From Cryobacterium sinapicolor (GTDB lineage Bacteria; Actinomycetota; Actinomycetes; Actinomycetales; Microbacteriaceae): 64,000 nucleotides of DNA. The notes beneath the pieces are model-generated. The model did no database searches. It saw only the letters and a program-made list of their open reading frames with translations, and was not told the origin of the DNA. Made by a program: the position numbers and the translations under genes. Positions 22,223 through 60,290 of this stretch are shown in pieces (the stretch's first letter is position 1; each line of letters starts with the position of its first letter). The stretch covers positions 1 through 64,000 of the forward strand of contig NZ_SOGQ01000019.1 of assembly GCF_004403465.1 (NCBI RefSeq). The letters are read 5' to 3'.

Positions 22223-22305
22223 ACCAATTCGACGGAGATTCTCGTGAAAATCGTCAATTTCGGCGTGTTCAGGGCTGTTTTAGCCAAAATCTCCGTCGAA
22301 TTCGT
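22223..22305. repeat. Palindromic element, ACGGAGATT family, copy 1 (83 bp)
   Basis: The left arm ACCAATTCGACGGAGATT and right arm AATCTCCGTCGAATTCGT pair over 18 bases with one mismatch, around a 47-base interior. The same arms occur at 26689, 44244 and 60207. It lies between the convergent small acidic protein and DUF3054 genes. No target-site duplication is seen. Confidence 0.9.
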
Positions 22306-22347
22306 TCGGGACGGAGGCGCTTGCGAACCCCGGACACGACAGGCGCA

Positions 22348-22389
22348 TGCTGGTGCTGGTGCTGGTGCTGGTGCTGGTGCTGGTGCTGG
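22348..22389. repeat. Hexanucleotide microsatellite (TGCTGG)7
   Basis: Seven perfect copies of TGCTGG end just before the DUF3054 stop codon at 22395, 43 bases from the palindromic element. Confidence 0.93.
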
Positions 22390-22394
22390 CGTGG

Positions 22395-22787
22395 CTACGC
22401 GACGGCGTGGGTGCGCGCCTGCCCGCGGCGGAGGAGCACGGCGATCCCGCGCCAGCCGAGCAGGAACACCCCGAGCACGACGGTCGTGACGACGACGAAG
22501 CTGAACTCCGTGCCCTGCCCGGTCACGGTGCGCAGCAGCATCCCGACGCCGACGGAGAAGAGCCAGATGCCGGTGCCCGTCCAGGCGATTTTCTGCGGGC
22601 TGCGCCAGGCGCGCATGACGAGCCAGCCCACGAGGAGGCCGCCGAGGAACGGCAGCCCGGTGAGCAAGGTGCCGAGGAGCCCCTCGCCGTGGCTGGCCCG
22701 GCCGATCAGCACGAAGATCAGCACCAGGGCGGCATCGAGCACTGCCGCGAGGAGGAGACCGGACCGACTGTTCTGCTGGATTGCCAT
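22395..22787 (-). CDS. DUF3054 family membrane protein
   Basis: A 130-residue hydrophobic protein with four transmembrane segments (about 10-30, 42-60, 68-90 and 96-118), matching the DUF3054 family of unknown function in actinobacteria. The start ATG at 22785-22787 has a TAGGCT box six bases upstream on the minus strand, so it is probably leaderless. Upstream of it lies the large 39-bp tandem array, and after its stop a TGCTGG microsatellite. Thus the gene is bracketed by repeats on both sides. Confidence 0.8.
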   Translation of the reverse strand: MAIQQNSRSGLLLAAVLDAALVLIFVLIGRASHGEGLLGTLLTGLPFLGGLLVGWLVMRAWRSPQKIAWTGTGIWLFSVGVGMLLRTVTGQGTEFSFVVVTTVVLGVFLLGWRGIAVLLRRGQARTHAVA

Positions 22788-22793
22788 GATTCC

Positions 22794-22799
22794 AGCCTA
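22794..22799 (-). promoter_or_regulatory. Leaderless -10 box of the DUF3054 gene
   Basis: Read on the minus strand, TAGGCT ends six bases before the ATG at 22787. It lies about 50 bases from the edge of the degenerate flank of the 39-bp array. Confidence 0.6.
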
Positions 22800-22847
22800 C
22801 GTGTCACCGGTCGCACGGCGGCCCGGCGGCTGAGGTCGCGGCGCTGG

Positions 22848-23530
22848 GACCGCAGGCCGGGAACGCGGGCTGGGACCGCAGGGCGGGACTGCGGGCTGGG
22901 ACCGCGGGCTGGGACCGCGGGCTGGGACCGCAGGGCGGGACTGCGGGCGGGGAACGCGGGCTGGGACCGCAGGGCGGGACTGCGGGCGGGGAACGCGGGC
23001 TGGGACCGCAGGGCGGGACTGCGGGCGGGGAACGCGGGCTGGGACCGCAGGGCGGGACTGCGGGCGGGGAACGCGGGCTGGGACCGCAGGGCGGGACTGC
23101 GGGCGGGGAACGCGGGCTGGGACCGCAGGGCGGGACTGCGGGCGGGGAACGCGGGCTGGGACCGCAGGGCGGGACTGCGGGCGGGGAACGCGGGCTGGGA
23201 CCGCAGGGCGGGACTGCGGGCGGGGAACGCGGGCTGGGACCGCAGGGCGGGACTGCGGGCGGGGAACGCGGGCTGGGACCGCAGGGCGGGACTGCGGGCG
23301 GGGAACGCGGGCTGGGACCGCAGGGCGGGACTGCGGGCGGGGAACGCGGGCTGGGACCGCAGGGCGGGACTGCGGGCGGGGAACGCGGGCTGGGACCGCA
23401 GGGCGGGACTGCGGGCGGGGAACGCGGGCTGGGACCGCAGGGCGGGACTGCGGGCGGGGAACGCGGGCTGGGACCGCAGGGCGGGACTGCGGGCGGGGAA
23501 CGCGGGCTGGGACCGCGGGCTGGGACCGCA
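22848..23530. repeat. 39-bp tandem repeat array, 15 copies plus degenerate flanks
   Basis: From 22931 to 23515 a 39-bp unit (first copy 22931-22969) is repeated 15 times with no visible change. The unit is built from CTGGGACCG, CAGGGCGGGACTG and CGGGCGGGGAACG. Partial units flank it on both sides (22848-22930 and 23516-23530). It fills the gap between the VIT1-type gene stop and the DUF3054 gene start. Because 39 is a multiple of three, long open frames run through it on both strands, but they are compositional artefacts. There are no spacers, so it is not a CRISPR array. Confidence 0.96.
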
Positions 23531-23533
23531 GGC

Positions 23534-24244
23534 TCAGACCGCGGTGCCGATCAGGGAACCGATCGCCCAGGTGACGCCGAGCGCGAGCAGGCCGCCGATC
23601 AGTACCCGGGAAATCGCGCGGGCCTTCGGGCTGCCGCCGAGGTAGGAGCTCAGCCAGCCGGTGATGACCAGGGCGATCGCGACGGCGAGGAAGGTGGCCG
23701 GCAGTCGCCACTCCGGCGGCGGCAGCAGCACCGCCAGGAGCGGCAGGATCGCGCCGACCGTGAAGGCGATCGCGGAGGCGAAGGCGGCGTGCCACGGGTT
23801 CGACAACTCATCGGTGCCGATGTGCAGTTCCACCTCCAAGTGCGCTCCGAGGGCGTCGTGCGCGGTCAGCTCGAGCGCCACCTGGTTCGCCGTCTGCGCG
23901 GTGAGCCCCTTCGCCTCGTAGAGGCCGGCCAGTTCGGCGAGCTCCTGCTCGGGCATGGTCTCGAGTTCCCAGGTCTCCTTGGCGATCAGGGCGCGCTCGG
24001 TGTCGCGCTGGCTGCTCACCGAGACGTACTCGCCCAGGGCCATCGAGATCGCCCCGGCGAGCAGGGCCGCGACACCCGCGATCAGGATCGCCGAGGCATC
24101 CGTCGTCGCCGCCGCGACGCCGACCACCAGGGCCGCCACCGACACGATGCCGTCATTGGCTCCGAGCACTCCGGCCCGCAGCCAGTTCAGGCGCGAGGCG
24201 TGGTCGGCGGAATGGGGATCGACGCCGTGCTCGGGTTCAGTCAT
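23534..24244 (-). CDS. VIT1/CCC1 family membrane protein
   Basis: A 236-residue protein of the vacuolar iron transporter (VIT1/CCC1) family, which moves Fe2+ or Mn2+ across membranes. Visible are [28 protein letters not shown] in helix 1 (about 18-45, start of the family signature), [20 protein letters not shown] in helix 2, a soluble acidic segment (metal-binding region) at about 85-140, and three more C-terminal helices. The ATG at 24244 is preferred over an in-frame TTG 12 bases upstream. The gene's 3' end runs directly into the 39-bp tandem array. Confidence 0.9.
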
Positions 24245-24487
24245 GACTGAATCCAAGCAGTCGGATGCGCGGCGCGCCAGCCGGACCCGATGGCGTCACG
24301 CGCGGCGCCGGCGTGTGCTCGGCGCCGACGTGTGTGCGATGCCGACGTGTTCGCGATGCCGGTGGGGACCGATAGAGTTTCACATGGTACTTATGTCTTG
24401 ATGTCGAGCTATCTGCGGCGCGGGCATCCGTGCCCCTTGCCCCTCAAGACCTTGCAGGAACGCTACGAAGCGGATTGGAAGAGCAGC
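24245..24487. promoter_or_regulatory. Divergent region and sucC promoter
   Basis: TAGAGT at 24373-24378 is a good -10 box for sucC and predicts a leader of about 100 bases. Around 24298-24360 GCGCCGACGTGT-like words are repeated with small changes. The palindromic motif at 24396-24409 lies just after the expected transcription start. Confidence 0.6.
24396..24409. promoter_or_regulatory. Candidate operator TCTTGATGTCGAGC upstream of sucC
   Basis: An imperfect palindrome TCTTGA-n2-TCGAGc located 10-25 bases downstream of the predicted start of transcription. The same pattern, read on the other strand, overlaps the -35 region of icd (38646-38659). Shared sites at two TCA-cycle genes suggest a common repressor, possibly of the MarR type such as TamR. 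Confidence 0.5.
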
Positions 24488-25657
24488 GTGGATCTTTACG
24501 AATATCAGGCACGAGACCTGTTTGAACAGTATGGAGTTCCGGTTCTTCCGGGCATCATCGCGGACACTCCGGAGGAGGTGCGTGCTGCGGCCGAGAAGCT
24601 GGGCGGCGTTGTCGTTGTCAAGGCCCAGGTCAAGGTCGGCGGACGCGGCAAGGCTGGCGGCGTGAAGGTGGCGAAGACCCCGGACGACGCTGAAGCCGCC
24701 GGGCGTGCCATCCTCGGACTCGACATCAAGGGCCACACCGTCAACCGGGTCATGGTTGCCGGTGGAGCCCGCATCGCTCAGGAATTCTACTTTTCCGTGC
24801 TGCTGGACCGCACCAACCGCTCCTACCTCTCGCTCGCGAGCTACGAAGGTGGCGTAGAGATCGAGATTCTCGCTGTTGAGAAGCCCGAAGCGCTCGCCTA
24901 CACGGCCATCGACCCGATTGCCGGGATCGATCTGGACACGGCCCGTCAGATCGCGGTCGCCGCGAAGTTCCCGGCCGACCTCGTCGACAAGGTCGCCCCC
25001 GTCTTCGTGCAGCTTTACAACGTGTTCACGGGTGAGGACGCGACCCTGGTCGAGGTCAACCCGCTCGTGCTGACCGAAGAGGGCGACGTCATCGCCCTCG
25101 ACGGCAAGGTCACGATCGACGAGAACGCCGGCTTCCGCCACCCGAAGCATGCCCTCCTCGAGGACGCCGCCGCCGCCGACCCGCTCGAGGCGAAGGCCAA
25201 GGCGAACGACCTGAACTACGTCAAGCTCGACGGCGAAGTGGGCATCATCGGCAACGGTGCCGGACTCGTCATGAGTACCCTGGACGTCGTCGCCTACGCC
25301 GGCGAGAACCACGGCGGCGTCAAGCCGGCCAACTTCCTCGACATCGGGGGCGGAGCATCCGCCGAGGTCATGGCCGCCGGCCTGGACGTCATCCTCGGTG
25401 ACCCGCAGGTCAAGGCCGTGTTCGTCAACGTCTTCGGCGGCATCACCGCCTGTGACGCTGTCGCCAGGGGCATTGTGGGTGCGCTCGCCGAACTCGGCAG
25501 CGCAGCGAACAAGCCGCTCGTTGTGCGCCTCGACGGCAACAACGTCGAGGAAGGCCGTCGTATTCTCGCCGAGGCCAACCACCCGCTCGTCACACTGGCC
25601 GCCACCATGGACGAGGGCGCCGCCAAGGCCGCCGAACTCGCCCACGCCGCGAAGTAA
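24488..25657 (+). CDS. sucC: Succinate-CoA ligase (ADP-forming) beta subunit
   Basis: Beta subunit of succinyl-CoA synthetase, converting succinyl-CoA to succinate with nucleotide phosphorylation in the TCA cycle. It is 389 residues from the GTG at 24488, the usual length. It starts with the canonical [21 protein letters not shown] and has the ATP-grasp fold ([16 protein letters not shown], then [20 protein letters not shown]) and the C-terminal ligase segment [15 protein letters not shown]. The frame is open further upstream but without homology. sucD follows after 13 bases. Confidence 0.95.
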
Positions 25658-25670
25658 GGGATTTTCGAAC

Positions 25671-26558
25671 ATGTCAATCTTCCTCAACAAGGACTCCAAG
25701 GTCATCGTGCAGGGCATCACCGGCGGTGAGGGCACCAAGCACACCGCCCTCATGCTCAAGGCCGGCACCCAGGTTGTCGGTGGCGTGAACGCGCGCAAGG
25801 CCGGCACCACGGTGCTGCACGGCGACGCGGAACTGCCCGTCTTCGGCACGGTCGCCGAGGCCATGGAAAAGACCGGGGCGGATGTCTCGATCGCCTTCGT
25901 GCCGCCGGCCTTCACCAAGGACGCCGTCATTGAAGCCATCGACGCCGGCATCCCGCTGCTCGTTATCATCACCGAGGGCGTGCCGGTGCAGGACTCGGCC
26001 GAGTTCTGGGCCTACAACATCGCCAAGGGCAACAAGACCCGCATCATCGGTCCGAACTGCCCCGGCATCATCACCCCCGGTGAGGCGCTCGTAGGCATCA
26101 CGCCGGCGAACATCACCGGCAAGGGCCCGGTCGGCCTCGTCTCCAAGTCGGGCACCCTGACCTACCAGATGATGTACGAACTGCGCGACCTCGGCTTCTC
26201 CACCGCCATCGGCATCGGCGGCGACCCCATCATCGGCACCACGCACATCGACGCGCTCGAGGCGTTCGAGGCTGACCCCGAGACGCTCGCCATCGTCATG
26301 ATCGGCGAGATCGGCGGCGACGCCGAGGAGAAGGCGGCCGAGTACATCAAGGCCCACGTCACCAAGCCCGTCATCGGCTACGTCGCCGGCTTCACCGCCC
26401 CTGAGGGCAAGACCATGGGCCACGCCGGCGCTATCGTCTCCAACGGAGCCGGAACCGCCCAGGGCAAGAAGGAGGCCCTCGAGGCCGCCGGGGTCAAAGT
26501 CGGCAAGACGCCGAGCGAGACCGCCACCCTGCTGCGCGAGGTTCTCGCGGCGCTGTAA
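25671..26558 (+). CDS. sucD: Succinate-CoA ligase alpha subunit
   Basis: Alpha subunit of succinyl-CoA synthetase, 295 residues from ATG 25671. It carries the CoA-binding N-terminal domain ([15 protein letters not shown]), the conserved [12 protein letters not shown] loop and the phosphohistidine His251 in [13 protein letters not shown]. It is in an operon with sucC. A strong hairpin terminator follows 70 bases on, and the first downstream palindromic element starts after it. Confidence 0.96.
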
Positions 26559-26628
26559 CCGGCACCGCTGCAACCGGCTCCGCTGCACGGTGGTGCCGCT
26601 GATCAGCGAGGCCACTGGCACCGAACGA

Positions 26629-26656
26629 AAGGGCCCGCCTCATCAGGCGGGCCCTT
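26629..26656 (+). terminator. Terminator of the sucCD operon
   Basis: Twelve-base perfect stem AAGGGCCCGCCT / AGGCGGGCCCTT with loop CATC, 70 bases after sucD. It is symmetric and lacks a long T-run. Confidence 0.85.
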
Positions 26657-26688
26657 GTGCGTTGCCGGCTGCCGGCATCCGTGCCCGA

Positions 26689-26771
26689 ACGAATTCGACG
26701 GAGATTCTGCTCTCAACCGCCCGATACGCCCGTTTTAGCCTGGACCCAAGCAAAATCTCCGTCGAATTCGT
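26689..26771. repeat. Palindromic element, ACGGAGATT family, copy 2 (83 bp)
   Basis: Arms ACGAATTCGACGGAGATT and AATCTCCGTCGAATTCGT are perfect inverted repeats of 18 bases around a 47-base interior. It lies between the sucD terminator and the DUF6350 gene. Confidence 0.92.
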
Positions 26772-26827
26772 CAGTGTGCGGCGGGGGCCGGGGAGCGAGG
26801 GTGCGGGAAACGGTAGGCTCCGATCGG

Positions 26828-28282
<1,455 letters not shown>

Positions 28283-28291
28283 GCTTCTCCC

Positions 28292-28885
28292 GTGCTGAAC
28301 TTGGTCGTATTGATCTCCGGCGGGGGATCCAACCTTCGCTCCCTGCTCGAGGCCTGCCGGGATGCTGACTACCCGGCCCGCGTGGTGGCCATCGGCGCCG
28401 ACCGCGACGCCGACGGGCTCGAGCTCGGCGAGGAATACGGCATCAGCACGTTCACGGTGCCGTTCACGTCGCATCCGTCCCGGGAGGCGTGGGGCGACGA
28501 GCTCCTCGCGCAGATCCAGCAGTGGGACGCCGACCTCGTCGTGCTCAGCGGCTTCATGCGCCTGCTGCCGCCCCGCGTCGTGGCCGCGTTGGCCCCGAAC
28601 CTGCTCAACACGCATCCGGCCTACCTGCCCGAATTCCCCGGGGCGCATGGGGTGCGTGATGCCCTCGCCGCCGGGGTCGACGAAACCGGTGCGAGCCTGA
28701 TCGTGGTCGACACCGGTGTCGACGACGGACCGATCATCGCGCAGGAACGAGTGCCGGTGCTGCCGGATGACACCCAGGCATCCCTGCACGACCGCATCAA
28801 AATCGTCGAGCGTCGCCTGCTGGTGCAGGCTGTGCTCGATATCGCCAACGGACACGTCGATCTCAAGGAGCATCCCCACATATGA
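28292..28885 (+). CDS. purN: Phosphoribosylglycinamide formyltransferase
   Basis: Transfers the formyl group of 10-formyl-THF to GAR in purine synthesis. The 197-residue protein has the N-terminal [13 protein letters not shown] phosphate-binding segment and the catalytic region [17 protein letters not shown] with the Asn-His pair, followed by [11 protein letters not shown] holding the catalytic Asp. The GTG start is preceded by a TAGGCT box and no Shine-Dalgarno site, pointing to a leaderless transcript. The stop overlaps the purH ATG by four bases, making a purNH operon. Confidence 0.95.
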
Positions 28886-30558
28886 GCGGTCCCACCAACG
28901 CCCAGAGTCTGTACCGCCACCGCGACGTCGTGCCCGTGCGGCGTGCCCTCATCTCGGTGAGCGACAAGACCGGTCTGGTCGAATTGGCCGCCGCCCTCGC
29001 GGTGACCGGCGTCGAAATCGTGTCGACCGGCTCGACCGCGGCCACCATCCGCGCCGCCGGCCACGACGTGACGGATGTCTCCACCGTCACCGGCTTCCCC
29101 GAATCCCTCGACGGCCGGGTCAAGACCCTGCACCCGGGAGTGCACGCCGGCATCCTCGCCGACCTGCGCCTCGAGGCCCACGAGGCCCAGCTCGCCGAAC
29201 TCGGCATCGACGCGTTCCAGCTCGTCGTCGTGAACCTGTACCCGTTCGTCGAGACCGCCCTGTCGGGCGCGGCCCCGGCCGACGTGATCGAGCAGATCGA
29301 CATCGGCGGACCGGCTCTCGTGCGTGCCGCAGCCAAGAACCACGCCAACGTCGCCATCGTGGTCGACCCCGACAACTACGACGAGATCATCGCCGCCGTC
29401 GAGGCCGGCGGCACCCCGCTGAAGCTGCGCCAGAAGCTGGCCTCGCTCGCCTTCGAGCACACCGCCGGCTACGACCTGAGCGTCTCGGCCTGGTTCACCG
29501 AGAACGTCTACGACCAGTGGCAGGACGATGCTGCGGCCCTGGACGAGGACATTCTCGAGGAGTTCGACGCCGTGATCGGCGATGCCCTCTCCGACGAGAT
29601 GCCGTTCCCCGAGACTCTCGTCATCGAGGCCACCCGCAGCGCGGTGCTCCGCTACGGCGAGAACTCGCACCAGGCCGCGGCGCTCTACCTGGGCGAAGGC
29701 GGCCAGGGCATCGCGCAGGCCGTGCAGCGCCACGGTAAGGAGATGTCGTACAACAACTACGTCGACGCGGATGCCGCCGTGCGCGCCGCCTTCGACTTCG
29801 CCGAACCGGCCGTGGCCATCATCAAGCACGCCAACCCGTGCGGCATCGCCGTCGCCAACCCCAAGGCGCCCGACGCGATCGCCTCCGCGCACCACCGCGC
29901 GCACGACTGCGACCCGATCTCGGCGTTCGGCGGCGTCATCGCGGCCAACCGCACGGTCACCCTCGGCATGGCCGAGACCGTCAGCCAGATCTTCACCGAG
30001 GTGCTCGTCGCCCCGGGCTTCGAGCCGGCCGCGTTCGAGCTGCTCAGCGCCAAGAAGAACATCCGCCTGCTGGAACTGCCGGCCGACTACCACCGCTCCT
30101 CGCTCGAGCTGCGCCAGATCTCGGGCGGCCTGCTGGTGCAGGAGTCCGACACGTTCGACAACCTCGACTCGTCGATCTGGACCCTCGCGGCCGGCGACGA
30201 GGTCGACGCGGCCACCCGGGCGGACCTCGAGTTCGCGTGGAAGGCCTGCCGCTCCGTGAAGTCGAACGCCATCCTGCTGGCGCGCGGCGGGGCATCCGTC
30301 GGCGTGGGTATGGGCCAGGTCAACCGGGTCGACTCCTGCCACCTCGCCGTGCTGCGCGCCGGCGACCGTGCAGCCGGCTCGGTCGCGGCCTCGGACGCGT
30401 TCTTCCCGTTCGCGGACGGCCTGCAGGTGCTGCTTGAGGCGGGCGTGACGGCGGTCGTGCAGCCCGGCGGCTCGGTACGCGACGCCGAGGTCATCCAGGC
30501 GGCCGCGGATGCCGGCGTCAGCATGTACTTCACCGGAGAGCGCCACTTCTTCCACTAG
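28882..30558 (+). CDS. purH: Bifunctional AICAR transformylase/IMP cyclohydrolase
   Basis: Carries out the last two steps of IMP synthesis. The N-terminal MGS-like cyclohydrolase domain spans about 20-160 ([31 protein letters not shown]). The transformylase domain follows, with [25 protein letters not shown] and the C-terminal end [12 protein letters not shown]. At 558 residues it is slightly longer than usual. It takes 10-formyl-THF, as PurN does. Depletion of that cofactor raises ZTP, the ligand of the riboswitch at 58747, which links this gene to glyA control. Confidence 0.96.
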
Positions 30559-30629
30559 GCGCCCCGGTGCCCTGTGCCCCTGTGCCTTGCCCTGTGCCCC
30601 TGTGCCCCTGTGCCTTGCCCTGTGCCCCT
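30559..30629. repeat. Short tandem repeat abutting a palindromic element
   Basis: Words GTGCCCCT, GCCCTGTG and GTGCCTT alternate through about 70 bases directly after purH. The run ends exactly at the left arm of the element at 30630. Confidence 0.88.
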
Positions 30630-30726
30630 GTGGCTAACTCAGGAGATCTGCGGATGCCGTTGGTCGCCCGCCGCGGAATTCCGGGGCGGTAGCCATGCGG
30701 CATCCGTTTTCTCCTGAATTCGCCAC
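30630..30726. repeat. Palindromic element, TAACTCAGGA family, copy 2 (97 bp)
   Basis: Left arm GTGGCTAACTCAGGAGA and right arm TCTCCTGAATTCGCCAC (two mismatches of 17) enclose 63 bases. The interior has a second inverted pair, TGCGGATGCCG against CGGCATCCG, so the whole can fold into an extended stem. It lies between purH and the MscS gene. Confidence 0.88.
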
Positions 30727-30789
30727 GGACTCTGGCACGATTGAAGGGTCCGTGGCTTCGCCAGAACCGTCCCGGCCAGAAGGAGCGCC

Positions 30790-31983: not shown

Positions 31984-32044
31984 CCGGCCGATGGTCACGG
32001 CGCGCGCGTGCTGCGCCGAGCCGACCGACAGATCCCGGTGCCCG

Positions 32045-32094
32045 TGAGAGTGCCGATTCCGGTCGAGAGTGACCGGCGGAATGGACACTCTCGT
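32045..32094. repeat. Imperfect inverted repeat between mscS and ddaH genes
   Basis: GAGAGTGCCGATTCCGG is mirrored by CGGAATGGACACTCTC about 15 bases later. Fourteen or so of 20 arm positions pair, and a third GAGAGTG lies between the arms. It may be an operator or a decayed palindromic element. Confidence 0.5.
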
Positions 32095-32131
32095 CCGGAA
32101 CGGCAACAGGAGGGCGATCGGGGGAGAGCCC

Positions 32132-32137
32132 TACACT
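32132..32137 (+). promoter_or_regulatory. Leaderless -10 box of the ddaH gene
   Basis: TACACT ends six bases before the ATG at 32144. Confidence 0.55.
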
Positions 32138-32143
32138 GGCGGG

Positions 32144-33420: not shown

Positions 33421-35292
33421 GTGACCACGCTCAGCGACCACAGCCATCCGCCCGATCCCGACCCCGCCGCGGGAACCGACCTGGTTCCCGCACCTCGGCG
33501 GAACACACTCCAGGTGCTGCTGCGCCTCTACCCGTTCGCCCGGCCGGCCCTGCCGCGGCTCGCGCTCGGCATGCTCGCCGCCCTGCTGGCGGCGCTCGTC
33601 GCGCTCGCCATCCCGCAGGTGCTCCAACGCCTCGTCGACGGGGCGCTGACCCGGCAGGATGCCGAGCAGATCTGGCCGGCCGTGATCGTCGTGCTCGCTC
33701 TCGGCGTGATCGAGGCGGTGCTGATCGCGCTGCGTCGCTGGTTCGTGCTCGGCCCCGGCACCCACATCGAGGCCCGGATGCGCAACGCGCTCTACGCCCG
33801 GCTGCAGGACCTCCCGGTCACGTTCCACGACAAGTGGCCGAGCGGCCAGCTGCTCTCCCGCGCCGTCAGCGACCTCAACCTGATTCGCCGGTGGATCTCG
33901 TTCGGGCTGGTGCTGCTCATCGTCAACGTGGTGACCATCGTGATCGGCGCCGTCATCCTGGTGTCGATGAACTGGATCCTCGGCCTCATCTTCCTCGTCT
34001 GCTCCGTTCCGCTGTGGATCGTCGGCTACCTGTTCGAGGAGAAGTACTCCGTCGTCGCGCGGCGCAGCCAGGATCAGGCCGGCGACCTTGCGACGGCGGT
34101 CGAGGAGTCGGTGCACGGCATCCGAGTGCTCAAGGCCTTCGGGCGCGGCAAATTCGCGTTGAAGAACTTCGCCGACCAGGCCGAGAGCCTGCGCGGCACC
34201 GAGATCGAAAAGGCGCGCGCCATCGCCGGCATCTGGCTGTGGCTGCTGATGATCCCGGACGTGGCCTTCGCCCTCTGCCTCGTGGCCGGCGTCTGGTTGG
34301 CCAGCCAGGGCGAGTTCAGCGTGGGTGGGCTCGTGGCCTTCTTCGCGACGGCCACCGTGCTGCGCTGGCCGATCGAGTCGGTCGGGTTCCTGCTCTCGAT
34401 GACCTTCGACGCCCGCACGGCGACCGACCGGTTCTTCGACGTGCTCGACGCGCCGAACGCGATCACCGACCCCGAGCATCCGGTCACCATCGACTCGCCC
34501 CGTGGCCGGCTGGCGTTTGAGGACGTGCACTTCCGCTACCCCGACTCGCCCAGCCGCTTCCCGGACCTGCTCGACGGCGTGGACCTCGTGCTCGAACCGG
34601 GGGAGACCATGGCGCTGGTCGGCCTGACCGGCTCCGGCAAGTCCACCCTGACGGCGCTGACCACCCGCCTCTACGACGTGACTGCAGGGCAGGTGACCCT
34701 GGACGGTGTCGACGTGCGCCACCTCGGCCGCGAGGAGCTGCGCCGGCACCTGTCGATGGCCTTCGAGGATGCGACGCTGTTCTCGGCATCCGTGCGCGAC
34801 AACGTGCTGCTCGGCCGCCCCGAGTGGGCCGAGCGCTCACCCGAAGCGGATGCCGCACTCGAGGAAGCGCTGATGGTCGCCCAGGCCGGCTTCGCCCACG
34901 ACCTCCCGGAGGGTGTCGACACGCTCGTCGGCGAGGAGGGAATGAGCCTCTCCGGCGGCCAGCGGCAGCGGATCGCGCTGGCGCGTGCGGTGGCGGCCAA
35001 GCCGGCCGTGCTGGTGCTCGACGACCCGCTGTCGGCCCTCGACGTGGACACCGAGTCCCTCGTCGAGGCCGCCCTGCGCGAGGTGCTCTCCGCGACCACG
35101 GCGCTGATCGTGGCGCACCGGCCGTCGACCGTGATGCTGGCCGACCGGGTTGCGCTGCTCGAGAACGGGCGCGTCACCGCGGTCGGGCGCCACTCCGACC
35201 TGCTCCGCGAGAGCGAACACTACAAGTTCGTGATCTCGAGCCTGGAAGACGAAGAACGACGAGAGTCCGCACGAGAGGAGGTGGCGCGATGA
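33421..35292 (+). CDS. Heterodimeric ABC exporter subunit with degenerate ATP site
   Basis: Type IV (ABCB-like) exporter half, 623 residues: six transmembrane helices at about 45-320 and an ATPase domain from about 360. Walker A is GLTGSGKST and the signature LSGGQ is canonical, but Walker B ends [11 protein letters not shown], with Asp in place of the catalytic Glu. That places it as the non-catalytic partner in pairs such as TM287/288 or BmrCD. The GTG start follows CAGGACTCACTC. It overlaps the next ABC gene by four bases (ATGA), and the two subunits surely form one complex. The substrate is probably a drug or lipid-like compound, by family only. Confidence 0.92.
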
Positions 35293-44119: not shown

Positions 44120-44243
44120 CAGCCGGCGGGTTCGGAACGGCGGCAGAGGGTGACGGATGCGCGGCATCCGTCACCCTCGCGTCGTCGGCTCGACGAGGGT
44201 GCCCCTGCCCGCTGGGCCGCTCGTCCGGTGTGCCTGCCCGTGA

Positions 44244-44326
44244 ACCAAATCGACGGAGATTTTCGACCAGAAGCGTGTTTCGGGCTGTTTTCGGGTCGTT
44301 GTGGGCAAAATCTCCGTCGAAGTCGT
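44244..44326. repeat. Palindromic element, ACGGAGATT family, copy 3 (83 bp)
   Basis: Arms ACCAAATCGACGGAGATT and AATCTCCGTCGAAGTCGT enclose 47 bases. Arm identity is slightly lower than in the other copies. It lies between the subtilase remnant and the MFS gene. Confidence 0.88.
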
Positions 44327-44374
44327 TAGGGGCCCAGGGGTGAGCGCGGGGCGGGCGGACTCCGGGCCAAGGCT

Positions 44375-50261: not shown

Positions 50262-50274
50262 CAATCTCGTCGGT

Positions 50275-50694: not shown

Positions 50695-50799
50695 AGTGTT
50701 CTCCGTTAATCGCGAGACAATCTGCCGCGCAGTGATCAATCGGCCATGTTAGCCGCCCGGGCTCCCCGCACGGGGAAACGGCGATCGGTGGCGTGGCGG

Positions 50800-52395: not shown

Positions 52396-52513
52396 GGGGC
52401 TCTTCCGATTATCGGGTTTTGGCCAACCCTAGCGGCCCTCGGACGGGGCCGACGTCCACGGCCTCCGGTAGACTCGCCCTGACACTCTGACTTCGAGAAA
52501 GCCGGGAGGCCTC

Positions 52514-55429
52514 ATGGCGACAATCCTCCTGGCTTTCGCCGCCCTTTCCGCGCTCACGCCGCTGCTGACCCGGTGGCTCTCCATCCGCGTCTTCTACGTC
52601 GTCGCACTGCTCCCCGCGGCCGCCTTCGGCTTCACGCTCACCCAGACCCGGGCCGTGTCGGCAGGTGAAGCGATCACCGAAAGCATCCCGTGGATCCCCG
52701 CGCTGGGCATCTCGCTCTCGTTTCGCGTCGACACCCTTGCCTGGTTGCTCGCCCTGGTCGTGACGGGGGTCGGCGCCCTCGTGCTGGTCTATTGCGTCCG
52801 CTACTTCAGCGCCGACGAACCCGCGCTGGGCCGGTTCGCGGCCAGCCTGCTGGCGTTCGCCGGGGCAATGTACGGCCTGGTGACATCCGACGACATCGTT
52901 GTCATGTTCATCTTCTGGGAGATCACGAGCGTGCTCTCCTACATTCTGATCGGGCACTACACCTTCAAGCGGGCGAGCCGCGGCGCCGCCCTGCAGGCGT
53001 TGCTGGTGACCACCTTCGGCGGCTTGATCATGCTGGTCGGGGTCGTCATCCTCACCGTGGAGGCCGGCACCACGTCGCTGGCCGTGATCGTCGCCGACCC
53101 TGTCACCGGCCCGGCCACCACCTGGGCGGTGCTGCTCATCCTGGTCGGCGCGCTGTCGAAGTCCGCGCTCGTGCCCTTCCACTTCTGGCTCCCGGCCGCG
53201 ATGGCGGCGCCGACCCCGGTCAGCGCCTACCTGCACGCGGCGGCGATGGTCAAGGCCGGCCTCTACCTGGTCGCCCGTCTCGCACCGGGCTATGCCGACA
53301 CTCCGGGCTGGATGCCGGTGCTCGTCACCCTCGGCGTCGGCACCATGCTGGTCGGTGCGTGGCGTTCGCTGCGCCAGTACGACCTCAAGCTGGTGCTGGC
53401 CTACGGCACGGTCAGCCAGCTCGGGTTCCTGATGGTCGTCGTCGGCTTCGGCACCCGGGACGCGGCGCTCGCCGGGGTCGCGCTGCTCCTCGCGCACGCC
53501 CTCTACAAGTCGGCGCTGTTCCTGACCGTGGGCATCATCGACCACCGCGCCGGCACCCGCGACTGGCGGCAGCTCTCCGGCGTGGGGCGCAACGCGCCCG
53601 TGCTGGCCGCGATCGCCCTGGTGTCGGTCGCCTCCATGGCGGGCATCCCGCCGCTGCTCGGCTTCGTCGCGAAGGAAGCCGTGTTCACGGCGTTCCTGGA
53701 AGCCGCTCTGGCCGGTGACGGATGGGGCTGGGTCGCTCTGATCGGCACCGTGCTCGGCTCGGTGCTGACGGTCGCCTACAGCGCCCGCTTCCTCTGGGGT
53801 GCCTTCGGAACCCGGGTGACCCTCGCGGACACCGCGCTGCACCCCGCCCGCTGGGACTTCCAGCTGGCGCCGGGGCTGCTGGCCGTGGCCACCGTCCTGC
53901 TCGGCCCACTCGTCTTCCTGCTCGACCCCGTGCTCGCCTCCTATGCCGACACCGTGCCCGGCGTCGGCGACTACCACCTCGCGCTCTGGCACGGCTTCGA
54001 ACCGGCGCTCGCCGTGAGCGCCGCGGTGGTCGTTCTCGGCCTCGCACTGTTCTGGAAGCGGCGAGGGGTGGCCCGGTTGCAGGGCATCGTGCCGGCCTAC
54101 GTCGACGCCGGGCAGGGCTACGGCTACACCGTGCGCAGCATCGACCGGGCCGCGGCGCGCATCACCCATTTCGCCCAGATCGGCGGACTGCCGCAGTACC
54201 TGTCCACCATCCTCATCGTCTTCGTGCTGGCGCTCGGGTTCGCGGCCTTCGTGAACCGCAGCTGGCCGGACCAGGTCGTGCTCTGGGACTACCCCGGCCA
54301 GGTGGCGATCGCCCTCACCATGGGCATCGCCGCGGTGATGGCCGCGCGCGTCGGCGAGCGGATCACCGCCGTGCTGCTGGCCGGAGTCACCGGCTACGGC
54401 CTGGTCGCTCTGTTCGCGTTCCACGGCGCCCCCGATCTGGCCCTGACCCAGGCGCTCGTGGAAACCATCACCATCGTCGTCTTCGTGCTGGTGCTGCGTC
54501 GGCTGCCCCAGAAGATCGCCCAGCGCAACCGGCCCGTTCACCCGCGGCGGCGCGCGGTGATCGGCGTGCTGGTGGGCGCCGTGATGGGCACCATCGGTGT
54601 GATCGCGCTCGGCGCCCGGCAGGCCCCGAGCATCGCCGCGGAGCTGCCGCGACTCGCGGTCGAGGAGGGGCACGGACGCAACATCGTGAATGTGATGCTC
54701 GTGGACATCCGTGCCTGGGACACGATGGGCGAGATCTCCGTGCTGATCGTGGTGGCCACCGGCGTCGCCAGCCTGCTGTTCGTCTCGGGCCGCAACACGG
54801 TCGTGCCGCGGCTGCGCGAATCGCGGAAGCTCCGATCTCTGCCGCACCGGCGCACGGTGGTCGCCGACCCGGCCGCGCCCTCCGAGGGGCATGCCGTCAC
54901 CCGCCAGTCCTGGCTCCTGGCCGGTCGCACGGTCGCCGAGAAGGACCGCTCGATCATGGTCGAGGTGCTGGTTCGCCTGCTCTTCCACCCGGCCATGATC
55001 GTCTCGGTCTACCTGCTCATCGCCGGGCACAACGCGCCCGGCGGCGGTTTCGCCGGCGGACTGATCGCCGGCCTGGCCCTCGTCTCCCGCTACCTCGCGG
55101 GAGGCCGCTACGAACTGGGCGAGGCGGTGCCCGTCCACCCCGGCAAGATCCTCGGGCTCGGCATCGTGCTGGCCGTCGGGATGGCCGTGGTCTCCCTCTT
55201 CTTCAGCGGCATCCCGTTGGAATCCGCCTACTTCGAAACCACGGTGGCCGTGCTCGGTCCCCTGTCCTTCGGCACCTCGACGATCTTCGACGTCGGCGTG
55301 TACCTGGTCGTGGTCGGTCTGGTGCTGGACATCCTGCGCAGCCTCGGTAGCGAGGTCGACCGCCAGCAGGAAGCCGGCGAGACCGAGCCCCGCTCGCAGT
55401 CGCAGCAGGGTGCGGAGGCCTCGGCATGA
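52514..55429 (+). CDS. mnhA: Na+/H+ antiporter Mrp subunit A fused to subunit B
   Basis: Large subunit of the multi-subunit Mrp/Mnh cation:proton antiporter, 971 residues. Residues 1 to about 790 form MrpA, with the NuoL/ND5-like core (LYKSALFLTVGIIDHRAGTRDW, FHFWLPAAMAAPTPVSAYLHA). The last 150 or so residues (from about 815, VEVLVRLLFHPAMIVSVYLLIAGHNAPGGGFAGGLIAG) are MrpB, which is separate in Bacillus. The A-B fusion is known in actinobacteria and some other groups. GGGAGG precedes the ATG; TAGACT near 52468 may be the -10 box. It starts a six-gene operon in which each gene overlaps the next by four bases or less. Confidence 0.93.
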   Translation: MATILLAFAALSALTPLLTRWLSIRVFYVVALLPAAAFGFTLTQTRAVSAGEAITESIPWIPALGISLSFRVDTLAWLLALVVTGVGALVLVYCVRYFSADEPALGRFAASLLAFAGAMYGLVTSDDIVVMFIFWEITSVLSYILIGHYTFKRASRGAALQALLVTTFGGLIMLVGVVILTVEAGTTSLAVIVADPVTGPATTWAVLLILVGALSKSALVPFHFWLPAAMAAPTPVSAYLHAAAMVKAGLYLVARLAPGYADTPGWMPVLVTLGVGTMLVGAWRSLRQYDLKLVLAYGTVSQLGFLMVVVGFGTRDAALAGVALLLAHALYKSALFLTVGIIDHRAGTRDWRQLSGVGRNAPVLAAIALVSVASMAGIPPLLGFVAKEAVFTAFLEAALAGDGWGWVALIGTVLGSVLTVAYSARFLWGAFGTRVTLADTALHPARWDFQLAPGLLAVATVLLGPLVFLLDPVLASYADTVPGVGDYHLALWHGFEPALAVSAAVVVLGLALFWKRRGVARLQGIVPAYVDAGQGYGYTVRSIDRAAARITHFAQIGGLPQYLSTILIVFVLALGFAAFVNRSWPDQVVLWDYPGQVAIALTMGIAAVMAARVGERITAVLLAGVTGYGLVALFAFHGAPDLALTQALVETITIVVFVLVLRRLPQKIAQRNRPVHPRRRAVIGVLVGAVMGTIGVIALGARQAPSIAAELPRLAVEEGHGRNIVNVMLVDIRAWDTMGEISVLIVVATGVASLLFVSGRNTVVPRLRESRKLRSLPHRRTVVADPAAPSEGHAVTRQSWLLAGRTVAEKDRSIMVEVLVRLLFHPAMIVSVYLLIAGHNAPGGGFAGGLIAGLALVSRYLAGGRYELGEAVPVHPGKILGLGIVLAVGMAVVSLFFSGIPLESAYFETTVAVLGPLSFGTSTIFDVGVYLVVVGLVLDILRSLGSEVDRQQEAGETEPRSQSQQGAEASA

Positions 55430-55944
55430 GCGTCTCCCTCACCCTCGTGATCGTGATGGCGGTCATGTACGCCGCCGGGGTCTACGTGATGCTGGAGCGC
55501 AGCCTCACCCGGGTGCTGATCGGATTCCTGCTGGTGGGCAACGCGACGAACCTGTTGATCTTCATCATGAGCGGCCGCCCGGGCAACTCGCCCATCGTCA
55601 CCGGAACGGCCGCCGACGCCGCGATGGCCGACCCGGTGCCGCAGGTGCTCATGCTCACCGCCATCGTGATCAACTTCGGTATCACGGCGCTGATCCTCGC
55701 GCTCATCTACCGGTCCTGGTGGCTGGCGCGTCTGGGTGACGAAGGCGACACGCTCACGGATGAGCACGCGGCCGAGACCTTCGCAAGCACCGAGGAGTCC
55801 TTCCGCTCGGTGACCGAAGATGAGGCGGCCAGCCAGGAAGACCTCGACGCCAGCGAGCGCGGGACCGAGCACGAGCACCAGCACGGGCACACGGGCGAGC
55901 GCGGCGACCCGGCCAACGCGCCGGGCGAGGGGATGAACCGATGA
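55426..55944 (+). CDS. mnhC: Na+/H+ antiporter Mrp subunit C
   Basis: A NuoK-like subunit of 172 residues with three helices in the first 110 residues (VYVMLERSLTRVLIGFLLVGNATNLLI, positions about 19-45, and DPVPQVLMLTAIVINFGITA). The C-terminal 60 residues are hydrophilic and rich in Glu, Asp and His, an extension longer than in Bacillus MrpC. ATGA overlap with mnhA and with mnhD. Confidence 0.92.
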   Translation: MSVSLTLVIVMAVMYAAGVYVMLERSLTRVLIGFLLVGNATNLLIFIMSGRPGNSPIVTGTAADAAMADPVPQVLMLTAIVINFGITALILALIYRSWWLARLGDEGDTLTDEHAAETFASTEESFRSVTEDEAASQEDLDASERGTEHEHQHGHTGERGDPANAPGEGMNR

Positions 55945-57512
55945 ACCTTCCGGCGAACATTCTCGTGCCCCTCGTCGTCACGATCCCGCTTCTGGGCAGC
56001 GCGCTGACCCTGGCCTTCGGCCGGCGCCGACCCCAGCAGATCGCGGTGAGTGTCTTCGCCCTGACGATGGTGGCCGTCATCGGCGCCGTGCTCCTGATCC
56101 AGGTCGATCAGGGCGGCACGGCCGTCGTTCATGTGGGCGGCTGGGACGCCCCGTGGGGCATCGTGCTCGTCGTCGACCGTCTGTCCGCGATCATGCTCCT
56201 GGTCTCGGCGCTGATGCTGCTCGGCGTGCTCCTGTTCGCCGTGGGGCAGGGCATCGTCGACGGCGACCGGGAAACCCCCGTCTCGATCTTCCACCCCACT
56301 TACCTTGTGCTGGCGGCCGGGTTGTTCAACGCGTTCATCGCCGGGGACCTGTTCAACCTCTACGTCGGGTTCGAGATGCTGCTCTCGGCGAGTTACGTGC
56401 TGCTGACGCTCGGCGGCACGGGTGCGCGCATCCGGGTCGGTGTCACCTACATCGTGGTGAGCCTGGTCTCCTCCATTCTGTTCCTCAGTGCGATCGCCCT
56501 GATCTATGGCGCCACGGGCACCGTGACCATGGCGCTGATCGCCGACCGGGTGGCGGACCTCCCGCCCGACGTGCAGCTGATCCTCAACTTGCTGCTCCTG
56601 CTCGCCTTCTGCGTGAAGGCCGCGGTCTTCCCGCTGTCGTTCTGGTTGCCCGACTCGTATCCCACCGCTCCGGCCCCGGTCACGGCGGTGTTCGCGGGTC
56701 TGCTCACGAAGGTCGGCATCTACGCGATCATCCGCACGCAGACCCTGCTCTTCCCCGACAGCGTGCTGTCGGTGCCGTTGATGGTGGTGGCCTTCCTGAC
56801 CATGATCGTGGGCATCCTCGGGGCGCTCGCGCAGGCGGACATCAAGAGACTGCTGTCGTTCACTCTGGTGAGCCACATCGGCTACATGATCTTCGGCATC
56901 GCGATGGGCACGCCCCTGGCGATCGCGGCCACCATCTTCTACGTCGTGCACCACATCACGGTTCAGACGACCCTCTTCCTCTGCGCGGGGCTGATCGAGC
57001 GGGTGGGCGGCACCACCTCGCTGGCACGGTTGGGCGGGCTGCTGAAAGCGGCGCCGTTCGTGGCCTTCCTGTTCTTCGTGGGGGCGCTCAACCTCGGCGG
57101 CATCCCGCCGTTCTCCGGTTTCCTCGGCAAGATCGCCCTCTTCCAGGCCGGCGCGGACATCGCCGAACCGGTGACGTACATCCTGATGGGCGCCGGAGCC
57201 GCCACCTCGCTGCTCACGCTCTACGCCCTGGCCCGGGTTTGGAACATCGCGTTCTGGCGCGGGGCAGGCGAGGTCGAGGACTACGAGTCGCCGATGCTCG
57301 ATGCGCTCCTCGAGGATCCCGACGACGAGGGCGCGGTCACGACCCGCACCATCTCGCCGCTGATGACCGCTGCGACGACTGCGCTGCTGCTGCTGACCGT
57401 CTCGCTCACCGTGTTCGCCGGGCCGGTTTTCGCACTCACCACCCGCGCGGCCGCCGACATCGAGACCCCCGCCACCTACATCGACGCCGTCTTCCCGAAC
57501 GGCACGCCATGA
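55941..57512 (+). CDS. mnhD: Na+/H+ antiporter Mrp subunit D
   Basis: A NuoN/NuoM-like proton-pumping subunit of 523 residues with about 14 helices. Conserved positions: FAGDLFNLYVGFEMLLSASY region (about 133-155) with Glu, KAAVFPLSFWLPDSYPTAP with the Lys in the channel, and HITVQTTLFLCAGLI. Residues 430-465 form a charged loop. It overlaps mnhC and mnhE by four bases. Confidence 0.94.
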   Translation: MNLPANILVPLVVTIPLLGSALTLAFGRRRPQQIAVSVFALTMVAVIGAVLLIQVDQGGTAVVHVGGWDAPWGIVLVVDRLSAIMLLVSALMLLGVLLFAVGQGIVDGDRETPVSIFHPTYLVLAAGLFNAFIAGDLFNLYVGFEMLLSASYVLLTLGGTGARIRVGVTYIVVSLVSSILFLSAIALIYGATGTVTMALIADRVADLPPDVQLILNLLLLLAFCVKAAVFPLSFWLPDSYPTAPAPVTAVFAGLLTKVGIYAIIRTQTLLFPDSVLSVPLMVVAFLTMIVGILGALAQADIKRLLSFTLVSHIGYMIFGIAMGTPLAIAATIFYVVHHITVQTTLFLCAGLIERVGGTTSLARLGGLLKAAPFVAFLFFVGALNLGGIPPFSGFLGKIALFQAGADIAEPVTYILMGAGAATSLLTLYALARVWNIAFWRGAGEVEDYESPMLDALLEDPDDEGAVTTRTISPLMTAATTALLLLTVSLTVFAGPVFALTTRAAADIETPATYIDAVFPNGTP

Positions 57513-58135
57513 GCACCCCGAAGCAGCGCCTCGCCACGTTCGCGAATCAGGTGCCTCTCTTCCTCGGGCTCGTGCTGCTGTGGATGCTGCTCTGGGGTTC
57601 CTTCTCCTGGCTCAACCTGCTCACCGGAATGTTGCTGGCCGCCATCGTCTCTGTGGGCTTCTACCTGCCCGCGGTGGAACTGGGTCTGCGCCTGAACCTC
57701 TGGTACACGCTCACCTTCCTGGTCCGGCTCGGCTTCGACATCGTACGTGGTTCGCTGCAGGTGGCCGTCCTCGCGCTCTCCCCGCGCTACACGCCCAGCA
57801 ACGCCATCGTCGCCGTGCACCTGCGCACCCGCAGCGATTTCATCCTGACGCTGACCGGGGTGTCGACGTCGATCGTCCCGGGCGCGATCGTGGTCGATGT
57901 GGACCGGGTGCGGTCGACCCTGTACCTGCACGTGCTCAACGTGCATCGGCCGGACCAGGTGGAACGGTTCCGGAACGGCGTCCTGGACGAGGAACGCCGG
58001 ATCGTGATGGCCCTTGGGTCCCGGGAAGACGTGGAACGCCTCCGCCGGGTCCGCGGCGAGGACAGGAGCGTGCAAGACCAACGCGCACGCGACCAGCATG
58101 CGCACGAGAAACGAAAGCGGGGAGGAACCGCCTGA
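57509..58135 (+). CDS. mnhE: Na+/H+ antiporter Mrp subunit E
   Basis: A 208-residue subunit starting at the ATG overlapping mnhD. Two to three helices fill about 15-60 and 70-90. The conserved cytoplasmic part has VHLRTRSDFILTLTGVSTS and GAIVVDVDRVRSTLYLHVLNV. The C-terminus is strongly charged (Arg, Asp, Glu, Lys), longer than in the Bacillus protein. A reading frame extending upstream inside mnhD is not the gene. Confidence 0.92.
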   Translation: MSTPKQRLATFANQVPLFLGLVLLWMLLWGSFSWLNLLTGMLLAAIVSVGFYLPAVELGLRLNLWYTLTFLVRLGFDIVRGSLQVAVLALSPRYTPSNAIVAVHLRTRSDFILTLTGVSTSIVPGAIVVDVDRVRSTLYLHVLNVHRPDQVERFRNGVLDEERRIVMALGSREDVERLRRVRGEDRSVQDQRARDQHAHEKRKRGGTA

Positions 58136-58398
58136 TGCTCATCGTCGCCGTTATTGCCGGGGTGCTGTTCGGGGCCGGCGCCCTGTGCGCCCTCTATCGA
58201 ATCGTGCGCGGCCCGACCGTGCTGGACCGGGTCATCGCCTCGGATGTCCTGGTCGCGACCGTGATCTGCGCGATGGGCGCTGAGATGGCGTTCAACCGGC
58301 ACACGGACACGCTGCCGGTGCTGCTCGTTCTCGCCCTCTTCGCGGTGCTCGGGTCGCTCAGCGTCGCACGCTTCCTTCCCGTGGAGGACAGCGAATGA
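58135..58398 (+). CDS. mnhF: Na+/H+ antiporter Mrp subunit F
   Basis: An 87-residue hydrophobic protein with three helices. It contains IVRGPTVLDRVIASDVL, the MrpF hallmark, and a short Glu-rich end. ATG shares its A with the mnhE stop TGA. A GGGGAGG site lies just upstream. Confidence 0.92.
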   Translation: MLIVAVIAGVLFGAGALCALYRIVRGPTVLDRVIASDVLVATVICAMGAEMAFNRHTDTLPVLLVLALFAVLGSLSVARFLPVEDSE

Positions 58399-58733
58399 GC
58401 GACGAACTGCAAGACGTGATCTCGGCGGTTCTGGTGCTCGCCGGGGCCGTGATGTGCCTCGCGGCCGGGATCGGCGTCATCCGTTTCCCCGACGTGTTGT
58501 CGCGGCTGCACGCCGCTACCAAGCCGCAGATCTTCGGGCTGATGGCAATCACGGCCGATGTGGCCCTGAACAACTTCACCGTGGGCACCGTCACCCTCGT
58601 CATTGCGATCGTCGTGTTCCAGGCGTTGACAGCCCCGGTGGCCGCGCACATGGTGGGCCGGGCCGCCTATGACACGCACCATGTGCGCGTCGACGTGCTC
58701 ATAATCGATGAGCTGGGCACCCGGCCCGACTGA
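58395..58733 (+). CDS. mnhG: Na+/H+ antiporter Mrp subunit G
   Basis: The final antiporter subunit, 112 residues, with three helices and the family segment GVIRFPDVLSRLHAATKPQIFG. ATGA overlap with mnhF. The TGA stop is directly followed by the -10 box TAAGAT for glyA, so that promoter starts within the end of the operon. Confidence 0.92.
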   Translation: MSDELQDVISAVLVLAGAVMCLAAGIGVIRFPDVLSRLHAATKPQIFGLMAITADVALNNFTVGTVTLVIAIVVFQALTAPVAAHMVGRAAYDTHHVRVDVLIIDELGTRPD

Positions 58734-58739
58734 TAAGAT
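58734..58739 (+). promoter_or_regulatory. -10 box of glyA
   Basis: TAAGAT lies immediately after the mnhG stop and about eight bases before the start of the riboswitch aptamer at 58747. Confidence 0.65.
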
Positions 58740-58746
58740 CGAGCCT

Positions 58747-58847
58747 GTCGCGACTGGCGTAGCACGAAAGATGGGTCACCATCGGGGAGCGACTGACACG
58801 GTTAGTGACCGCACGCCTGGGCCACGACGATTGATCATCACGTCGTA
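58747..58847 (+). promoter_or_regulatory. ZTP (pfl) riboswitch upstream of glyA
   Basis: GTCGCGACTGGCG at the 5' side and GGGGAGCGAC (58784-58793) close the first stem (GTCGC/GCGAC), with the conserved CUGGCG and GGGGAG elements in the junction. The 3' pseudoknot domain GCACGCCTGGGCC (58811-58823) holds the conserved CGCCUGGGC. These match the consensus of the ZTP-sensing pfl motif. A following hairpin, ACGACG to CGTCGT (58824-58846), could be the expression platform in front of the glyA ribosome site (GAGGAG at 58860-58865). ZTP/ZMP accumulates when 10-formyl-THF is short, and binding would raise glyA expression. Confidence 0.85.
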
Positions 58848-58871
58848 ATCACAAAGTCTGAGGAGACCCCC

Positions 58872-60170
58872 GTGCCCGATTCCGTGCCATCCACCGTTCT
58901 GCGGTCCACGTTCAACGATCCTCTGGAGGTTGTCGACCCCGAGATCGCCGCCGTCCTCGAGCAGGAGCTCGGACGCCAGCGCGACTACCTCGAAATGATC
59001 GCCAGCGAGAACTTCGTGCCGCGTGCAGTGCTGCAGTCGCAGGGCTCGGTGCTCACCAACAAGTACGCCGAGGGCTACCCGGGACGCCGTTACTACGGCG
59101 GCTGCGAGTACGTGGACGTCGCCGAGCAGCTCGCCATCGACCGGGCCAAGTCCCTCTTCGGCGCCGCCTACGCCAATGTGCAGCCCCACTCCGGCGCCAC
59201 CGCGAACGCCGCCGTGCTGTCGGCCATCGCGACGCCCGGCGACACCATCCTCGGGCTGGAACTGGCCCACGGCGGCCACCTCACCCACGGAATGAAGCTC
59301 AACTTCTCCGGTAAGCTCTACAACCCCGTCGCCTACGGCGTCGACCCGACAACGTTCCTCGTCGATATGGACGTCGTGCGTGAGAAGGCGCTCGAGTCCC
59401 GCCCCCGGGTCATCATCGCCGGCTGGTCCGCCTACCCCCGCCACCTCGACTTCGAGGCGTTCCGCAGTATCGCCGACGAGGTCGGCGCCATGCTCTGGGT
59501 CGACATGGCCCACTTCTCCGGACTCGTCGCCGCGGGCCTGCACCCGTCCCCGGTTCCCTACGCGGATGTCGTGTCCACCACGGTGCACAAGACCCTCGCC
59601 GGTCCCCGGTCCGGTCTGATCCTCTCGCGCGACATGGCGCTGGCGAAGAAGCTCAACTCGAACGTGTTCCCCGGCCAGCAGGGCGGCCCGCTGATGCACG
59701 TGATCGCAGCCAAGGCGACCGCGTTCAAGCTCGCGGCCGAGCCCGAGTTCAAGGAACGTCAGGAGCGCACCCTGCGCGGTGCGAGCATCCTCGCCGACCG
59801 TCTGATGGCGGATGACTCGCGCGCCGGCGGTGTCGACGTGCTCACCGGCGGCACCGACGTGCACCTCGTGCTCGCCGACCTCCGCAACTCGCCGATCAAC
59901 GGCCAGCAGGCCGAGGACGCCCTGCACGCGGTCGGCATCACGGTCAACCGCAACTCGGTGCCGTTCGACCCGCGGCCGCCGATGGTCACCAGCGGATTGC
60001 GCATCGGAACCCCCGCCCTGGCCACCCGCGGCTTCGGGGACGAGGAGTTCACGGTCGTCGCCGACGTCATCGCCGAGGCGCTCAAGCCCGACGCCGACGT
60101 CGAGGGCCTCCGCGCCCGCGTCAAGGTGCTCACCGAAGCTTTCCCGCTGTACCCCGGCCTGCAGCAGTAG
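58872..60170 (+). CDS. glyA: Serine hydroxymethyltransferase
   Basis: Interconverts serine and glycine with THF, the main one-carbon donor. The 432-residue PLP protein has [10 protein letters not shown] (about 41-50), [19 protein letters not shown] and the PLP lysine Lys240 in [16 protein letters not shown], plus [15 protein letters not shown] with the conserved Asp/His. GTG start after GAGGAGACCCCC. The leader is a ZTP riboswitch. folD follows 268 bases on with a palindromic element and a microsatellite between. Confidence 0.96.
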
Positions 60171-60206
60171 CGCCCGCCGCGCCGGGGCTCAGCGCCCTGC
60201 GTGTAA

Positions 60207-60290
60207 ACGAATTCGACGGAGATTGTGCCTTGAAAGCCCGCTGGCGGCATCCGTCACCGGCGTGTCGCCCAAAATCTCCGTCGAATTCGC
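60207..60290. repeat. Palindromic element, ACGGAGATT family, copy 4 (84 bp)
   Basis: Arms ACGAATTCGACGGAGATT and AATCTCCGTCGAATTCGC enclose 48 bases. It lies between glyA and folD and is followed after 15 bases by an octamer array. Confidence 0.92.

Follow-up and report, generated by a model that had tools for sequence, protein, structure and literature searches.

We analysed 64,000 nucleotides of the cold-loving Cryobacterium sinapicolor (contig NZ_SOGQ01000019.1, positions 1 to 64,000; hereafter the window) and found that four palindromic elements within it belong to a dispersed family with a built-in ruler. Two nearly invariant arms lie at a fixed distance that is quantised in helical turns, the diverged DNA between them carries phased A/T tracts, the arms are conserved in place, and the copies retain residual common ancestry. 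Mirror-image ends that stay almost unchanged at helix-set distances suggest a protein gripping both ends and bending the DNA between them, and we regard this bridging of the arms as probable. Dispersed extragenic palindromic repeats are already known; what is new here is the ruler, together with the phased interior.

The four elements, none of which is assigned a strand, lie at 22218..22310 (element 1, flanked by a FUSC-like gene on one side and DUF3054 on the other), 26684..26776 (element 2, in the gap between sucD and a DUF6350 gene), 44239..44331 (element 3, upstream of an MFS gene) and 60202..60295 (element 4, between glyA and folD). Their cores measure 69 bp in the first three and 70 bp in the fourth. 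An earlier note on this DNA had placed them at 22223-22305, 26689-26771, 44244-44326 and 60207-60290, with the same arms and lengths of 83, 83, 83 and 84 bp, all of which we confirmed; its ends were drawn too short, however, and about 5 bp more are conserved on each side, out to CCC(T/G)AAC, giving a unit of about 93 bp. At up to three mismatches the arm ACGAATTCGACGGAGATT has eight matches in the window, against a mean of 0.05 and a maximum of 1 in 100 dinucleotide shuffles.

The family extends far beyond the window, as the earlier note had proposed to check. Genome-wide, the exact palindromic core TCGACGGAGATT-N-AATCTCCGTCGA occurs 99 times and its reversed control not once; with up to two or three mismatches at the fixed 69-bp core there are at least 119 copies in this genome (G000), and, at up to two mismatches, at least 119 each in G793 and G795. 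Counting this one, 21 of 57 Cryobacterium genomes carry between 2 and at least 119 copies (up to two mismatches). A scan of 398 Microbacteriaceae genomes at up to three mismatches gave a match in 32, of which 18 had two or more and 14 had one, the single matches looking like chance. Outside Cryobacterium the larger counts were 87 (G060), 22 (G201), 17 (G008 and G288), 16 (G205), 15 (G321) and 10 (G091), and G060 has loci in common, sequence for sequence, with Compostimonas suwonensis. Among the matches listed, the named carriers include several Cryobacterium species, Glaciibacter superstes and C. suwonensis. At the level of the order, two of 396 genomes matched: this genome, and one elsewhere with a single two-mismatch hit. 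Places common to different genera, for example with Compostimonas, were seen, and were set aside because no excess over chance was shown. A phage origin was likewise dropped, the exact palindromic core being missing from the viral contig collection.

Confinement to one chromosomal domain was also rejected. On the complete Cryobacterium breve chromosome (NZ_CP075584.1) the first of the 23 places listed at up to one mismatch is at 157 kb and the last at 3922 kb (total length, 3959 kb); they are thus nothing like one confined domain, with two element-free gaps of more than 600 kb (the spread was judged by eye). In G000, near-identical neighbours lie a few hundred bases apart at C64:33756-33849 and 33948-34041 and at C56:68659 and 68982; these pairs are probably local duplications.

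The arms of the first family, which we call GAC-type, lie at a nearly constant distance. When elements were collected with core lengths from 31 to 109 bp allowed, the core was exactly 69 bp in 116 of the 130 obtained and 70 bp in 8. A symmetrised profile built on 98 + 18 elements shows arms that are almost invariant, followed by peaks of A/T (positions 18-20, positions 28-30 and the mirror image of each), with GC between the peaks and at the dyad. Across 203 elements the phase-locked 10-bp A/T amplitude reached 7.42, compared with null maxima of 0.62 for shuffled and 1.13 for rotated sequences; single interiors had a 10-bp power of 5.64 and flanks 0.90, and the best interior period was 9.75-10 bp. 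The earlier note had called the 47-bp interior free: its sequences do diverge, but the A/T peaks recur every 10 bp and are locked to the arms. Within the arm, the inner part CGACGGAG is mostly retained across lineages, and the outer part is lineage-specific: CGAAC(C/G)AATT in most Cryobacterium, ACTCAAAA in Compostimonas, CATATG in G201 and GAAA in the g12 genomes.

An arm-independent inverted-repeat scan of the window uncovered a second, TCA-type family, missed by the earlier note, with three window copies. These carry GTGGCTAACTCAGGA arms and lie at 9995..10103 (distance from GGA to TCC, 83), 30631..30725 (distance 73) and 62640..62734 (distance 73), again without an assigned strand. Exact AACTCAGGA/TCCTGAGTT pairs number 23 in this genome, and the copy at 30631 falls outside them because its right arm carries one change. 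Among these 23 the GGA-to-TCC distance is 61 in one, 72-73 in 8 and 82-84 in 14, with none elsewhere in the range 59-89; the best period is 10.75, with a resultant of 0.935 against a null maximum of 0.73. The classes are one helical turn apart, and they are in phase with the first family, whose distances (n=148) are 61 in 130 elements, 60, 62 or 63 in 12, 71 in one and 101 in two, the last two within one array. A third arm type, CTGCGGAGAT, has five exact copies in G078 and two in G193 at distances of 59-62, with further copies at 83 in G078 and 82 in G193. These distances place the arms near the same helical face across three length classes and three arm types. A search with a G193 palindrome of another arm type gave one copy.

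Several individual arrangements depart from this plan. In the g12 genomes (L140 and L142-L145, around 1500-1570) one arm has, about 30 bp inside it, a third CGACGGA box, with the 69-bp core unchanged, and in G201 related arms (CATATGGACGGAGATTC) are densely arrayed, several of their boxes facing each way (L134, 1400-1720). At L030 1-155 and L048 1-143 (minus strand) the right arm breaks off and identical foreign sequence (GGCTCYCCTGCTG...) follows, which would suit the entry of an insertion sequence into the arm. The arm at L019 7603 carries a 7-bp insertion.

At orthologous places the arms are retained as their surroundings drift. In 51 orthologous pairs the arm cores agree at 1107 of 1122 positions (98.7%), compared with 71% for the interiors, 71% for flanking intergenic DNA and an aligner null of 56% for interiors; core length is identical in 46 of the 51. 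Four of these pairs, obtained through similar neighbouring DNA or through synteny with the arms unused, gave 85 of 88 for cores and 110 of 164 for interiors. Comparisons among carrier genomes found the element retained in 172 of 175, the exceptions being a diverged copy that keeps the 61-bp distance (L020, compared twice) and a shortened one (L059). From the window, element 1 has an orthologue in G314 (core 22/22, interior 33/41), element 2 has orthologues in G314, G239, G370 and Cryobacterium sp. M96, and the place of element 4 is also occupied in C. algoritolerans, G239, G370 and G. superstes. A copy near folD in G078 was dropped as an orthologue of element 4, lying about 1.1 kb off. Arms kept in place beside drifting neighbours, together with a patchy presence among genomes, might also be expected if a biased process, DNA uptake for instance, maintained the sites, and not their use at each place. 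Known uptake signals, though, are short single words in far higher copy number, and a fixed two-arm spacing with a phased interior would be unexpected of them; we find this explanation scarcely credible.

DNA that loops or wraps on a protein would need just this combination of dyad symmetry, spacing quantised by the helix and A/T tracts in phase, and the spacing and helical phase fit the suggestion of the earlier note that a protein reads both arms at fixed spacing. In the account that we favour, these are short dispersed extragenic elements of MITE-like origin (MITE, miniature inverted-repeat transposable element), each of which would now be bound by a single protein or complex with dyad symmetry. 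This putative factor would grip the two arms, each 18-23 bp, from one side of the helix and keep the DNA between them tightly bent or wrapped, with the in-phase A/T tracts easing the curvature. Judging by where the elements lie, the role may be architectural or topological, for example a boundary for supercoils or transcription after genes. To this whole statement, including the MITE-like origin and use in place by the host, we give an even chance. A more specific version is tentative, and we would sooner bet against it: a bacterial counterpart of nucleosome-positioning DNA, about 93 bp long, that combines a dyad, phased A/T and two address arms and would make one wrap around a putative protein at about a hundred places mostly after genes, the outer-arm address having changed between lineages.

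Several observations weigh against this account. Of the 57 Cryobacterium genomes, 36 lack the family, which is therefore dispensable, and no partner protein was found. First-family distances of 38, 56 and 68, once each, are out of phase (the last reflecting a 7-bp insertion in an arm), and the 23 TCA-type distances are not all independent because those copies have interiors in common. Several of the 51 orthologous pairs have a locus in common with one another, and the set favours intact arms because most loci were fetched for carrying arms. Further, the counts of gene context given below depend on our own codon-based gene calls, made on loci fetched for having elements.

If the account is correct, Microbacteriaceae would contain an unrecognised sequence-specific DNA-bridging or DNA-wrapping protein with about a hundred defined sites. 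The built-in spacing ruler and the natural length variants would make the family a convenient system for studying how bacteria position loops or supercoil boundaries where genes end, and also how a family of sites spreads and changes its recognition word.

Elements are in excess at the 3' ends of genes. Leaving aside 5 of the 130 elements that overlap predicted genes and 8 at a locus edge, elements against gaps numbered 52 against 109 in convergent, 56 against 462 in tandem and 9 against 110 in divergent contexts. An alternative count of convergent contexts (61/141 versus 24/245) is biased because an element lengthens its own gap, and we prefer the all-gap counts. In tandem contexts the orientation of the element relative to transcription is random (31 versus 28). 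A self-regulating partner gene was also sought by clustering the genes that flank 188 elements; ten recurrent ones, read by eye, look like housekeeping or transport genes, and this candidate was rejected.

The preference for convergent gaps would suit gyrase-binding sites, counterparts of Escherichia coli BIME-2 (BIME, bacterial interspersed mosaic element), in which phased GC wraps on the gyrase C-terminal domains and supercoils are relieved after genes. In its available part, PMC6379681 describes gyrase sites with symmetric, helix-phased GC content, likened to nucleosomes (see also the available part of PMC12393610), and BIME-2 elements that hold many such sites. As in strong gyrase sites and nucleosome-positioning DNA, GC and A/T vary here with the helical turn around a dyad. 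The gyrase motif given there, however, has a 36-bp centre and two 47-bp flanks with a period of 10.75 bp, whereas the elements have a period of 9.75-10 bp between fixed arms (a comparison of layout and period). Neither gyrase sites nor nucleosome-positioning DNA has invariant sequence-specific arms, and lineage-specific arms of 18 bp would be unexpected of gyrase, which makes this alternative unlikely.

A location mostly at gene 3' ends, and arms able to pair, could also point to an RNA hairpin, acting as a bidirectional terminator or as a stabiliser of mRNA 3' ends; the earlier note had offered an RNA structure as an alternative. In a mixed set of 116 elements, outer positions -7, -6, -4, -2, -1 and 12 indeed covary, but they do so because arm types differ from lineage to lineage. 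Within this genome (47 elements) the variable positions of the two arms are complementary less often than random pairing would give (outer 163 versus 187 +- 7, inner 371 versus 413 +- 13). Such a shortfall agrees with the two halves being truly asymmetric: a two-arm model gains 544 log units over 158 Cryobacterium elements (orthologues included), compared with a mean of 323 and a maximum of 378 for re-paired arms. At the four window elements, no T-run follows the arms as read from the sequence, none was marked by a terminator scan that allowed only loops of 3-8, and an Rfam scan of the window matched nothing at them, its sole match being a ZTP riboswitch. A 10-bp A/T phase would have no role in an RNA loop. 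Because the arms do not covary within this genome and their orientation ignores gene direction, we consider an RNA stem very improbable.

MITEs and other short non-autonomous repeats such as ERIC and Correia elements have terminal inverted repeats, many copies and no coding capacity, and the elements described here have these traits too. They also show signs of shared descent. In C. breve ERMR7:08, the interiors of 20 fetched copies have a mean similarity of 0.58 and a maximum of 0.88 (mean 0.45 for 47 copies here), and the two-arm model detects a weak polarity common to copies, so the family has spread. The contrast drawn by the earlier note with MITEs holds only in part, the copies of C. breve ERMR7:08 having a recognisable common interior.

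The copies could on these grounds be miniature transposons that are still or were recently mobile, with the arms as terminal repeats, a transposase synapsing both ends over a very short loop and so quantising length, and only intact copies moving. Many copies, patchy presence, lineage-specific outer arms, and the common interiors and residual polarity agree with this. So does a precedent in the available part of PMC3464196, where Paramecium internal eliminated sequences fall into length classes about 10 bp apart, read as DNA looping in a complex that bridges the ends; there, as here, the ends alone are conserved, the interior decays and the classes differ by one helical turn. The Paramecium sequences are eukaryotic, are excised in development and have weak short ends, whereas the arms here are 18-23 bp long. 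Against mobility, 216 elements show no target duplication, in agreement with the earlier note, and small direct-repeat excesses (z about 3) fall inside the conserved outer arm. The alignment of occupied and empty sites that the note had called for revealed no cleanly empty site among the loci that were compared. An autonomous copy would give lone arms; of 381 arm occurrences in 1.6 Mb of fetched loci, 378 are paired and 3 lone, and no autonomous relative was found there. The RAYT/Y1 transposase that the note had proposed as a partner (PF01797) occurs in none of 18 genomes, this one included, and in 5 of 14 control genomes, other transposase families not having been tested. Mobility alone also does not explain arms conserved at fixed places as interior and flanks drift, and unlike ordinary MITEs the diverged interiors carry phased A/T tracts. 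Current or recent transposition thus appears possible but doubtful.

Among known bacterial repeats, the elements also resemble the repetitive extragenic palindromic (REP) sequences and BIMEs of enterobacteria and Pseudomonas, likewise dispersed, extragenic and palindromic, in about a hundred copies. As described in the available part of PMC2817692, REPs are hairpins some 20-35 nt long that mostly begin with GTAG or GTGG and are tied to a Y1 (RAYT) transposase, and BIMEs bind IHF or gyrase. By contrast, the single arms here, as read from the sequence, have no hairpin or GTAG-like head and lie 61, 72 or 83 bp apart around a diverging interior, and no Y1 gene was found in the 18 genomes examined. 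The earlier note knew of no description of this family, and we found none in the open PubMed Central literature, searched largely by listing, by arm words and for Cryobacterium, Microbacteriaceae and actinobacterial palindromes. In the available part of one Cryobacterium paper (PMC7381226), both uses of "palindromic" concern CRISPR.

The window has other features besides. A separate GC hairpin at 26631..26654, just 3' of sucD and between that gene and element 2, scores as terminator-like on the minus strand only and is probably the sucD terminator, outside the element. It holds the same position in correctly placed relatives, in a comparison of the sucD-DUF6350 locus across nine genomes in which G239, G392 and G078 were misplaced (low scores), G239 and G078 being read from other comparisons. 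Tandem repeats beside elements showed no clear enrichment (22 of 41 element-bearing gaps versus 15 of 37 others). About 530 bp past element 1, a tandem array of a 39-bp unit spans 22837-23533, with 17.8 copies at 96% identity. The ZMP/ZTP riboswitch lies at 58740-58829 on the plus strand (53.2 bits), immediately 5' of glyA (58884).

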